Shown here: positions 2,872-30,243 of the stretch, one piece after another
Numbering within the stretch: position 1 is the first letter of the stretch
Layout: each line of letters begins with the position of its first letter
Notes under the pieces: generated by a model
Seen by the model: only the letters and a program-made list of their open reading frames with translations
What the model was told of the DNA's origin: nothing
Database searches by the model: none
Origin: Parcubacteria group bacterium GW2011_GWD2_42_14
GTDB lineage: Bacteria; Patescibacteriota; Minisyncoccia; Phycocordibacterales; UBA12088
Assembly: GCA_000998045.1 (NCBI GenBank)
Contig: LCCS01000008.1
Location: 1-32,550, forward strand
Direction: 5' to 3'
DNA length: 32,550 bases
Program-made: the position numbers and the translations under genes

Positions 2872-5092
2872 TAAAAAAACAGTCTTGTTTGTTGCTCCGT
2901 ACTTTCCTCCACACAGTGGAGGGGTGGAACGCTATGTTTCAGAGATAGTAAAAAATATAGATAAAGATACATGGAATCCTGTCGTACTTACGACAAGTGA
3001 CGGGGGGCAGGATACTCGTGAGGAGTTTGCGGGGTGTATGGTGCATCGTCTTCAATACGACTTTCAAGTATCAAACACACCTTTTTCATTTCAGTGGTTC
3101 TTGAAGGTGCGGTATCTTCTCCGGGATGTAGCACCAGATGTGGTGAATGTGCATATGCCAGTTCCAGGGTTAGGTGATGTGACGGCACTCGTTCTGCCTC
3201 GCGCAATTCCGCTTGTGGTGACGTATCACGGAGAAAGTATGAAAAAGGGTTCACTTGTTGCTGATGTGCTGGTATGGCTGTACGAACATGTACTGCTTCG
3301 TTATGTGCTCCACAGAGCACGACACATCATTTGTTCTTCAGATTCTATACGTCTCCATTTCCTCAAATCGTACATGCATAAAAGTACCACCATACTCCCG
3401 GGAGTTGATACGGAAGTATTTGTTCCCAATGAAAAAATAAAGAACAGCAAGCCAACGGTGTTGTTTGTCGCGGGACTTGGTAAAGGTGACGACCATAAGG
3501 GGTTGAAAATTCTGCTACGAGCTATAAAAAAAGTGCGAGCTGTCATACCTGATGTACAGCTTGTTGTGGTGGGGGATGGTACGAGAAGATCGTACTTTGA
3601 AAAAAAAGTTATTGAACGTGGACTGGAAGAGGTGGTGCAATTTAAGGGGAGACTTCATGGTCGAGCACTGGTGGAAGAATACCAAAAAGCGCATCTTTTT
3701 GTATTGCCGACAAAGAACGAAAGTTTCGGTATGGTTATTGCTGAGGCGATGGCAACAGGGTTACCTGTAGTCAGTACCCAGGTTGGTGGTGTTCCGCTTT
3801 TGGTTGACACGGGGGTCACCGGCACGTTAGTGGAGGTGGATGATACGAGTGCACTCACTGCGGAAATTATTTCGTTCCTTAGAGACCCTGAAAAAAGCAC
3901 TGCATTTGGTATTGCGGGAAGAAAAAAAGTCGAAGAAGGATTTAGTTGGGTACAGCGCGCAAAGGCATATGCAACTGTGTTTACTGAAGCAGAGACGCGA
4001 CACCAGACCATTGCACATATCGTTGGGTATTACCCACCTCACCTCGGTGGTATGGAAGTGGTCGCCAGTGAGGTTGCAAAAGAGCTTGCGCGCAAAGGGT
4101 ATGATGTTCGTGTTTTTACCAGTACCTTGGGGGGGAAAATAGTAGAAACCGTCGAACGGCATAAGAATTACATTCTACGCAGACTACAGAGTAGCGAGTT
4201 TGCACATACGCCGATTTTGTGGAGCTTACCTTTTCATCTTTTGGTATTGCCACAAGGCACCATACTCCACGTGCACCTTGCGCAAGCAGGCATTCCTGAG
4301 ATTGCATTACTTGTTGCAAAGATACGAGGCTTCCGTACAGTGATACATTTTCATCTTGATGTTGAACCTTCTGGGAAACTTGGTCCGCTGTTTCTTCAGT
4401 ATAAAAAACACGTACTCGGTATTGTGTTGCGCAGAGCTGACCGTGTTCTTACCTTCTCAGAGGAACAGAAGGAGTTTATACATACCACGTATGCGGTTCA
4501 GAGGGATGTCATCCACACCATCCCGAATGGAATAGGGTCTGTATATTTTAAGATTATGCATACAAAAAAAAGTGACGTGGTACGCCTTTTGAGTGTGGGA
4601 CGTCTCACTGTACAAAAACGAATTGATAGAATAATAGCAATGTTCCCGCTCCTTACGTTTGACGCAAAGCTTACTATTGTGGGAGAAGGTGAAGACAGAG
4701 AAGCATTAGAAATACTTGCTGCAAAAACAGCTCCTAAAAAAGTAATTTTTACAGGTAAAAAATCACCAAAGCAGGTACGTAATCACTATCGTAATGCGGA
4801 CATCTTCCTCATCCCTTCAGATAAGGAGGGCATGCCTATGGTAGTGCTTGAGGCTATGGCTGCAGGTGTTCCTGTTGTTGCTTCAAATGTGTTCGGGCTC
4901 CGTGAGGTGGTTGGAGGTGTAGGTGAGTTGGTAGATAACCCTAGCCCAGAGTCGTTTGCAAATACACTCAATGTCTTAGTACGAGATGAAGAGAAACGTA
5001 ATGCAATGCGAGAACGAGGGAGAGCTTTTACGCGTGAACTCTCTTGGCCGGTAGTCGTATCTAAAATCGAAGTGGTGTACACAAATATATGA
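2864..5092 (+). CDS. Tandem GT4-GT4 glycosyltransferase fusion
   Basis: The 742-aa protein contains two complete GT4 glycosyltransferases in series. The first (about residues 1-372) opens with VAPYFPPHSGGVERYV and carries NESFGMVIAEAMATG. The second (about 380-742) opens with VGYYPPHLGGMEVVA and carries KEGMPMVVLEAMAAG. Each half is of normal GT4 length and keeps its own nucleotide-sugar EX7E-like region, so this is a bifunctional enzyme rather than a decayed duplicate. The halves are clearly diverged, which argues for two different linkages. The start ATG lies inside the last codons of the deacetylase fusion and the stop overlaps the next gene by 4 nt (ATGA), which indicates translational coupling. 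Substrates cannot be inferred. Confidence 0.85.
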   Translation: MDSKKTVLFVAPYFPPHSGGVERYVSEIVKNIDKDTWNPVVLTTSDGGQDTREEFAGCMVHRLQYDFQVSNTPFSFQWFLKVRYLLRDVAPDVVNVHMPVPGLGDVTALVLPRAIPLVVTYHGESMKKGSLVADVLVWLYEHVLLRYVLHRARHIICSSDSIRLHFLKSYMHKSTTILPGVDTEVFVPNEKIKNSKPTVLFVAGLGKGDDHKGLKILLRAIKKVRAVIPDVQLVVVGDGTRRSYFEKKVIERGLEEVVQFKGRLHGRALVEEYQKAHLFVLPTKNESFGMVIAEAMATGLPVVSTQVGGVPLLVDTGVTGTLVEVDDTSALTAEIISFLRDPEKSTAFGIAGRKKVEEGFSWVQRAKAYATVFTEAETRHQTIAHIVGYYPPHLGGMEVVASEVAKELARKGYDVRVFTSTLGGKIVETVERHKNYILRRLQSSEFAHTPILWSLPFHLLVLPQGTILHVHLAQAGIPEIALLVAKIRGFRTVIHFHLDVEPSGKLGPLFLQYKKHVLGIVLRRADRVLTFSEEQKEFIHTTYAVQRDVIHTIPNGIGSVYFKIMHTKKSDVVRLLSVGRLTVQKRIDRIIAMFPLLTFDAKLTIVGEGEDREALEILAAKTAPKKVIFTGKKSPKQVRNHYRNADIFLIPSDKEGMPMVVLEAMAAGVPVVASNVFGLREVVGGVGELVDNPSPESFANTLNVLVRDEEKRNAMRERGRAFTRELSWPVVVSKIEVVYTNI

Positions 5093-29171: not shown

Positions 29172-29309
29172 AAAACTAACGGTGCGAAAGTCGGGGAACA
29201 AGCCCGCAAACTAAATCTACTCTAGTACTGCAAAGCAGTACGTGCCGTAGGCACAAGAGTAGACTTGGTGTGCGGGTAAACTGGTTGTTGAGGATTGGCC
29301 CCGTTAGAG
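29172..29309 (-). repeat. Structured repeat C (inverted copy), candidate ncRNA or recombination site
   Basis: Nested stems fill this stretch: CTAACGG/CCGTTAG (29176/29301), CCCGCA/TGCGGG (29203/29271), TCTACTC/GAGTAGA (29216/29257), and two terminal hairpins, GTACTGC/GCAGTAC and GTGCC/GGCAC. Read on the minus strand it begins CTCTAACGGGG and ends near TTAGTTT, which matches the start and end of the plus-strand repeats at 29368 and 29973. There is no ORF. Confidence 0.6.
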
Positions 29310-29367
29310 ACCTAAAACAAAGATGACGTTCTATTTTTACGTCGCTTTTGCTTTGCACAGTAGATAA

Positions 29368-29471
29368 TATTAATGAGGTCGGACCTCATTAATACTCTAA
29401 CGGGATCGGGAGGAGAATTTAGGAGGTCGGACCTCCTAAACATAAGGAGGAGAAATAGTTTGGAAAGGGTG
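29368..29471 (+). repeat. Structured repeat A
   Basis: A 13-bp-arm palindrome (TATTAATGAGGTC, centre G) leads into CTCTAACGGGATCGGG, then a second palindrome with 11-bp arms (TTTAGGAGGTC), then TAGTTTGGAAAGGGTG. Bases 29376-29410 match 29981-30015 in copy B at 34 of 35 positions, and the last 16 bases are identical to 30066-30081. Only the middle hairpin differs. Confidence 0.7.
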
Positions 29472-29534
29472 GCTGACCCTTCGGCACCTGGGTTCGATTT
29501 ACAAATTATATATTTCTGATAGATTCTGTGACAG

Positions 29535-29798
29535 ATGTGGTTTTGGAAACTTTTCAATGAGAAAAAAATGACCTTAGAAACTTTTCTGAAGCGTGTCACG
29601 TATGCGTGTTTAGCTATGTGTTTGTTTTCAAGTCTATTTCTAATTTTGTTAACGGTATATTATCTGTCTTCTGTTGCAGCTAACGGTGCTGCCACTCGAG
29701 AAATAGGTGCCTGGTTTTTTCCCCGGGCAATTGGAGGATTGTTGTTGCTTATTGCCTCGTACATACCTGGTAAACTATGCAACCTTATCAAACGTTAA
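29535..29798 (+). CDS. Small two-helix membrane protein
   Basis: The 87-aa ORF lies between repeats A and B. It has two hydrophobic helices (about residues 22-46 and 62-80) and basic ends (EKKMTLETFLKR, KLCNLIKR). Either the first ATG or the Met at residue 12 could be the start. A good intrinsic terminator follows 18 bp after the stop, which supports real expression. Its position, alone between two homologous structured repeats, resembles a cassette. I do not recognise the family. Confidence 0.5.
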   Translation: MWFWKLFNEKKMTLETFLKRVTYACLAMCLFSSLFLILLTVYYLSSVAANGAATREIGAWFFPRAIGGLLLLIASYIPGKLCNLIKR

Positions 29799-29815
29799 CA
29801 AAAGTTCTTCAGTAC

Positions 29816-29843
29816 AAAGACCTGCACAATCGTTCAGGTCTTT
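29816..29843 (+). terminator. Intrinsic terminator of the small membrane protein gene
   Basis: AAAGACCTG and CAGGTCTTT form a 9-bp stem with a 10-nt loop, followed by a T-rich stretch ending in seven Ts. Confidence 0.6.
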
Positions 29844-29872
29844 AGTCTTTATAGGTTTTTTTCAAATCATCA

Positions 29873-29900
29873 CATTAACACACGGTCGTGTACTAAAGTA
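29873..29900. promoter_or_regulatory. Palindrome site 3 of the PaaX-like operator family
   Basis: The right half (CGTGTACTAAAGTA) and the CACGGTCGTG core are identical to site 2 at 14001-14030; the left arm is degenerate (10 of 14). No start codon lies directly beyond it on either strand, so it may be a remnant or may control a transcript of repeat B. Confidence 0.5.
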
Positions 29901-29972
29901 CTGTTTTTAAAATTATACAAATCTACTTGAAAGGAGGGGAATACTTGGCTTACCCTATTTCTATTCAAAGAT

Positions 29973-30081
29973 TATTAAGGAGGTCGGACCTCATTAATAC
30001 TCTAACGGGATTGGGCTAAAACAAAATAGCTATTTTGTTCGTCCGATAATAATTAGAAGGGGAAGTAGTTTGGAAAGGGTG
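29973..30081 (+). repeat. Structured repeat B
   Basis: This is the second plus-strand copy of the repeat at 29368. The first block has 13-bp arms with one mismatch around a central G, then CTCTAACGGGATTGGG. The middle is replaced by a different perfect palindrome (AACAAAATAG and complement, 30020-30039), and the end block TAGTTTGGAAAGGGTG is unchanged. Conserved ends with a swapped central hairpin suggest that structure is under selection rather than sequence. The rest of the gap from 29901 to 30243 shows no gene. Confidence 0.7.
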
Positions 30082-30243
30082 TTAGATTTCGTTTCTCAAA
30101 TACTAGAGCATGAAAAGTAGGAAATTATTGTACCCGTCCCCAATAACTTTGTTAATATACCAGCTTATCATTTACAAATATTATAGTCTTTATTTACAAC
30201 ATGCATTGTGTACTGTGAAAGTAATTAAATTAACAAAAGGTAT

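Follow-up and report, generated by a model that had tools for sequence, protein, structure and literature searches.

The repeats near position 29,300 of the window, by which we mean the whole stretch of DNA analysed (32,550 nucleotides, the entire contig C8 of a 1.08-Mb Parcubacteria genome in 44 contigs, labelled G000), belong in part to a family that is dispersed through this genome. The explanation that best fits the whole of the observations, and to which we assign a probability of about 0.8, is a family of tiny mobile elements that insert at start codons and whose short and long forms are both moved by a GIY-YIG nuclease. Such elements are common in candidate-phyla bacteria. The short form (105-140 bp) has a subterminal hairpin and no enzyme, and the long form (269-280 bp) has as its sole gene that of a GIY-YIG nuclease of 85-95 aa.

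The initial annotation of the locus had described three homologous structured repeats, A, B and, on the other strand, C, with conserved ends and exchanged central hairpins. We found that the repeats are real, and that they had been cut at the wrong points, with the boundaries inside-out: the end of C and part of the start of A are the two ends of one 105-bp unit. The features of the locus are as follows.

29300-29404, + strand: the true unit, a 105-bp short (non-autonomous-like) element, divergent or rearranged, with the inverted pair CCCGTTAGAGA...CTCTAACGGG and a closed fold (z = -6.84).
29300-29310, + strand: left inverted end CCCGTTAGAGA, which is the end of C.
29395-29404, + strand: right inverted end CTCTAACGGG, within the start of A.
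29368-29394, no strand assigned: subterminal palindrome TATTAATGAGGTCGGACCTCATTAATA, a separate dispersed family, in the spot that GGTCACTTCGTGACC-type hairpins occupy in other copies.
29969-30009, + strand: B, consisting of a second copy of the TATTAATGAGGTCGGACCTCATTAATA-type palindrome and a lone right end CTCTAACGGG (30000-30009) with no nearby left partner.
29295-29298, + strand: TTGG adjoining the left end; TTGG stands again after the right end of B, at 30011-30014, and the right end of A is followed by TCGG.
29437-29471, + strand: segment 83% identical to 30047-30081, with the last 16 bases identical (TAGTTTGGAAAGGGTG); the remainder of the A/B local duplication.
30047-30081, + strand: partner of 29437-29471.
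29203-29276, no strand assigned: core of C, a three-way-junction palindrome CCCGCA...TGCGGG of an unrelated dispersed family.
29535-29798, + strand: 87-aa open reading frame between A and B, a small membrane-like protein by inspection.

A and B do share their starts (41 of 43 bases identical between 29368-29410 and 29973-30015) as well as their last 16 bases, and their central palindromes differ, all as had been described. For C, the branched fold with its outer CTAACGG/CCGTTAG stem is real (29172-29310, + strand, z = -7.0), and the likeness to A and B holds for the CTCTAACGGG end and is otherwise limited to the six bases TAGTTT. The length of the 105-bp unit is that of a class common to 152 other copies. 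The family model matched its left end weakly (nhmmer, 29292-29328, E = 0.31), and a GGTCGGACC palindrome has replaced the hairpin stem next to its right end. Furthermore, the window copy does not lie at a start codon, its boundary bases are unpaired (C..A) and it has no clean target duplication; the TTGG before its left end and after the right end of B is only suggestive of a remnant of one. The 29300-29404 unit and the lone end at B are a divergent, rearranged member of the dispersed family, and we read the window copy as decayed and caught in the local A/B duplication, which also brackets the 87-aa frame. This frame had no Pfam match, the segment that A and B share at 29437-29471 and 30047-30081 had no further copy elsewhere in the genome, and the locus showed no synteny in five genomes of the same genus. 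A search of the window repeats against Rfam gave nothing near the gathering score, and ARAGORN found no tRNA or tmRNA where GGGTTCGAT at ~29488 had raised the suspicion of one.

Across the genome, CTCTAACGGG was found at 46 sites, against ~2 expected for a 10-mer. The sites mostly form inverted pairs ~115 bp apart, in which GTTAGAG is the left member and CTCTAAC the right. In 13 aligned copies the left TCCCGTTAGAGAC and the right GTCTCTAACGGGA are held in common, most have a hairpin (for example GGTCACTTCGTGACC) adjoining the right end, and the ends of the family are inverted over ~13 bp (YCCCGTTAGAGAY ... RTCTCTAACGGGR). A profile search of the genome returned ~25 copies. Among 15 long pairs outside the window, 12 begin a gene directly at its ATG; two of the others are the first of tandem pairs in which the second copy lies at the ATG, and one, on contig C21, has no more than a 5-codon frame after it. 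From their N-termini we take the host genes to be uvrA, ruvC, map, rnhA, tig, rlmB, ABC transporter genes and glycosyltransferase genes, and copies without an exact pair presumably precede secD, mscL and atpH. The host genes of most identified copies have canonical N-termini when read from that ATG.

The hairpins were then considered across copies. Stem statistics were used in place of a covariance model, since the stems are exchanged and not homologous. In 48 of 91 copies the right end is immediately preceded by a perfect stem of at least 6 bp, compared with fewer than one expected from shuffles, and these 48 copies have 22 different stem sequences. The earlier proposal of mobile sites with conserved ends and exchangeable hairpins was borne out on a larger scale, and the stems change on both sides. 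Short elements of this genome, among them C13:9664, C26:5595 and C7:57697 (given as contig:position), have small frames ...LTDGHFVTCL* whose stop falls within the right end and so immediately precedes the host ATG. The frame ending at the TAA of CTCTAACGGG contains stops in 45 of 95 copies, compared with 72 and 86 for the other frames. The ...LTDGHFVTCL* frames are suggestive of a leader peptide conserved in the short copies of this genome, but the open frame may simply follow from the hairpin sequence. Much shorter relatives (~43-70 bp) with CCCGTTAGAGG...CCTCTAACGGGG palindromes were seen at C9:3487, C9:10790, C25:12644 and C29:10916; some of them lie between GCAAGCC flanks, and they are not positioned at start codons.

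We collected 84 distinct complete short copies from named genomes of a public collection. Many Patescibacteria lineages are represented among them, as are records labelled Omnitrophota, Planctomycetota, Elusimicrobia, WOR-3, Auribacterota, Ratteibacteria and Deltaproteobacteria. The boundary bases of the short copies are complementary (T..A in 52, C..G in 30). Target duplication was scored for 83 copies, and an exact 4-bp direct duplication was present in 62 of them, against 15.5 expected when left and right flanks were shuffled. The duplicated bases are usually TGAA, TGAG or TGGA, with TGAA the commonest (29). Of 95 copies that directly adjoin an ATG, the 4-bp duplication is present in 61. 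The copy at C1:27394 stands between GTGAA on the left and ATGAA on the right, and the terminal A is therefore the element's own; it is this last base that rebuilds the ATG. Copies in other phyla that end in G leave GTG starts, for example before acetate kinase in record L139.

Empty sites were found in the same-genus genomes G001 and G003 at two places of one ABC-transporter operon. At the first, G001 reads GAAGAATGAGTCCGCTC, compared with GAAGCGTGA, the element TCCCG...GGGA and then TGACCCC in G000; the target here is a stop/start overlap, and both stop and start are preserved after insertion. At the second, G001 reads AAGTATGAGGATC, and G000 has two tandem copies (TCCC...GGGA) between AAATATGAG and TGAGAATAC. 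Together, these results indicate that the copies arose by insertion and not by descent. Insertion in many unrelated genes also argues for transposition rather than homing. As regards viruses as vectors, no complete short or long copy was found in IMG/VR.

In a crude gene call of the genome, ATGAA, ATGAG and ATGGA occur 338 times at starts, against 1243 occurrences outside genes and 7099 within them. Even when the sites inside genes are ignored, starts make up only 21% of the allowed sites, yet they hold nearly all of the intact copies. In other phyla, some copies are at TAAA or TTTA targets away from start codons, so the start-codon pattern may be part target preference and part selection.

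The lengths of the elements revealed the coding form. In the sequence collected at that stage, 152 of 168 pairs of ends were 100-139 bp apart and six were 269-279 bp apart, and these six are the GIY-YIG copies, five with a readable frame and one (L095) decayed. A search for the long form in 247 genomes of the order found it in 19, with no control match; the sampling of GIY-YIG elements lay mainly within one order. The 18 copies with a readable frame were translated, and Pfam PF01541 was matched with E = 3.2e-17 and 2.6e-16. Y11, Y13, R30, R32, H36, E56, E68 and N82 are invariant in these proteins and Y24 is nearly so; the invariant residues include those predicted for a GIY-YIG active site. 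The nearest solved structures are those of UPF0213 (1zg2, E = 7.5e-10; 1ywl, E = 6.9e-5) and SLX1 (7wme and 7cq2, E ~0.003). SLX1 is a structure-specific nuclease, and kinship with it fits the hairpin-forming ends.

The nuclease frame crosses the right end of the element, where it reads ...LKRFLSLTG; its stop codon is the TGA of GGGATGA, which overlaps the host start. It often crosses the left end as well, and in several copies it begins at the duplicated ATG as MNPVRD. From their N-termini, the host genes of the long form are presumably murG (twice, in different genera), topA, ftsW, fba and mscL; five of the 18 translated copies are not at an ATG. Wherever a long form has intact ends and its frame can be read, it encodes the GIY-YIG nuclease and nothing else, and no recognised transposase was found in the longer form. 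A long form (2565-2842) and a short form (3312-3437) less than 500 bp apart were observed outside Patescibacteria, in the Ratteibacteria record L185.

To relate the nuclease to the ends, we scored 247 genomes of the order for both (element-type GIY-YIG cut-off E <= 2e-38). Complete short copies were present in 35 genomes and an element-type GIY-YIG in 35, and 19 had both, compared with 5.0 expected (Fisher p = 4.5e-10). As a control, a Y1 transposase was present in 61 of the 247 genomes and overlapped with short copies in 9, compared with 8.6 expected. More distant GIY-YIG homologues have other inverted ends (TCCCGTACGARAT, ACCCCGTTAAGT, TTTACCCTGTTAAATA and others), matched left to right; the match exceeded the shuffle limit for 17 of 20, and convincing inverted ends were absent in three. 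Several of these distant elements also finish at an ATG, for example before KdsB-, MutM- and GatC-like proteins. The co-occurrence and the matched ends of the distant homologues indicate that ends and nuclease travel and vary together.

Whether the nuclease is a mere passenger, with a hidden transposase acting in trans on both forms, is the most serious alternative, one we regard as possible and rather unlikely. It would accommodate the 16 of 35 genomes in which short copies occur without an intact element-type GIY-YIG, and we know of no strand-transfer activity in GIY-YIG enzymes. However, the nuclease gene is the only gene in every intact, readable long form, its distant homologues keep matched but different ends, and it co-occurs with the short copies, which the Y1 transposase does not.

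The favoured reading, a start-codon-directed element moved by its own nuclease, runs as follows. Intact members enter a 4-bp site, usually TGAA, TGAG or TGGA, that belongs to an ATG start or to an overlap of stop and start such as ATGA. As the 4 bp are duplicated on insertion, the stop of the upstream gene is kept and the old start codon is left on the left of the element, while the terminal A recreates the ATG on the right, so that the host genes stay intact. We consider it most likely that the paired ends form a hairpin or cruciform, which the GIY-YIG nuclease cuts together with the target, and that it so mobilises both the short and the long forms. GIY-YIG nucleases are not, to our knowledge, able to join DNA, and integration would thus need host repair or another enzyme as its joining chemistry. 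The nuclease and its host gene would be translated by stop-start coupling.

The position of the copies also bears on an improbable explanation, namely that they are cis-acting RNA leaders or translational switches before start codons, spread by duplication or descent and not as insertion elements. A right end touching the ATG, a strong closed fold (z = -6.8), stems that change on both sides and the more often open frame ending at the TAA of CTCTAACGGG would all fit such a leader, but the 4-bp duplications match each host gene's own first codons, and insertion is also what the empty sites, the tandem copies, the variety of unrelated host genes and the copies with a nuclease gene inside them speak for. 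The elements may have acquired a regulatory effect later.

Still less probable are REP/REPIN-type palindromes moved by a Y1 (RAYT) transposase. The GGTCGGACC palindrome of A and B is dispersed and stands on both sides of a Y1-like gene on contig C30. However, this would account for the palindrome alone and not for the CTCTAACGGG ends, Y1 presence shows no association with the short elements, and Y1 elements, as far as we know, make no target duplication. Among the copies surveyed so far, no Y1 gene lies inside CCCGTTAGAGA...TCTCTAACGGG ends.

The suggestion in the initial annotation of attC-like recombination sites bounding cassettes draws on CTCTAAC/GTTAGAG, which do resemble R boxes, on conserved ends with variable hairpins and on the small frame bracketed by A and B, but can be set aside almost entirely, as the boxes run in the order GTTAGAG...CTCTAAC and not RYYYAAC...GTTRRRY, the complete units have 4-bp target duplications, lie one by one at scattered start codons and are missing from the matching sites of relatives, and the bracketing is a local duplication without a second instance in the genome. 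For an integron integrase, the best protein of the genome scored 88 bits with TIGR02249, below the cut-off of 265. Copies occur singly or as tandem pairs at start codons across contigs, and no array of cassettes separated by these sites was seen next to an IntI gene.

Compared with known systems, the elements resemble MITEs and small bacterial insertion sequences in their inverted ends, fixed-length target duplication, empty sites in relatives and short non-autonomous forms that share ends with a longer coding form. They differ in that the ~275-bp long form encodes a GIY-YIG nuclease and no known transposase, and in that the target is a start codon with both neighbouring genes kept. In form this is a MITE/insertion-element family, and its gene content and target match no family known to us. 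Integron attC sites are likewise imperfect palindromes with similar outer heptamers, and the elements here differ in their opposite box order, their target duplications and the lack of an IntI. UPF0213 (YhbQ-type) and SLX1 proteins share the single compact nuclease domain, whereas they are stand-alone cellular proteins not known within inverted ends. Penelope-like retroelements are mobile and use a GIY-YIG endonuclease, as here, but they also encode a reverse transcriptase, run to thousands of bases and belong to eukaryotes.

A 2024 review of prokaryotic MITEs has neither GIY-YIG nor start codons in its text (PMC10969869). A 2024 study of CPR rRNA genes described GIY-YIG genes in insertions unlike group I/II introns and, in the same lineages, further rRNA-gene insertions that are short (<200 bp) and uncharacterised (PMC11270868); the terms 'terminal inverted' and 'target site duplication' are absent from its text. 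Those insertions are in rRNA genes, whereas the elements here are at start codons; both kinds may be the same elements. In the literature within our coverage, outside which most subscription journals lie, we found no description of these ends, of NPVRD, or of a bacterial GIY-YIG with inverted repeats and start codons.

On balance, we lean towards a new class of DNA transposon, a ~275-bp element with a single-domain GIY-YIG nuclease as its transposase, paired hairpin ends and insertion at start codons that leaves the neighbouring genes functional. If the enzyme's role is confirmed, the element would be categorically new and perhaps the smallest autonomous DNA transposon known, driven by a nuclease class for which no such role in bacterial DNA transposons was known before. 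Many 'GIY-YIG nuclease' annotations in candidate-phyla genomes would then denote transposases, which would give a function to these widespread small genes, and the short forms would be their MITEs. Gene-start annotation would be corrected, and the elements would offer a very small tool for insertion at start codons. Precise insertion at a start codon, with the ATG rebuilt from the element's last base and a stop overlapping the host start, shows how transposons can survive in streamlined genomes that have little space between genes. As families of ends and of nucleases match each other, how the one is recognised by the other is open to direct test.

Several other palindrome families were observed in this genome. 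The GAGGTCGGACCTC palindrome of A and B occurs 11 times in it and flanks a Y1-transposase-like gene on C30 (8702-9388, 228 aa); at C30:8600-9422, AATTAATGAGGTCGGACCTCATTAAT palindromes, of the kind dispersed through the genome and present within A and B, stand immediately on both sides of this gene. Relatives of the CCCGCA...TGCGGG core of C were found at C7:50116, C21:9666, C24:19950 and C41:4257, and at C41:4394 of the same-genus genome G005. Several of these dispersed palindromes (CCGCACA...TGTGCGG) have two inner hairpins in a three-way, T-shaped arrangement, often with GCAAGC flanks, and their arms differ between copies by paired changes. A AACACACGGTCGTGTG-type palindrome is repeated in the window at 29870-29925, 13336 and 14002 and occurs again at C37:1360. 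Finally, a repeat with TGTACCCGTCCCCAATAAC at ~30109-30147 of the window is also present in G005, at C13:11955 and 14745.
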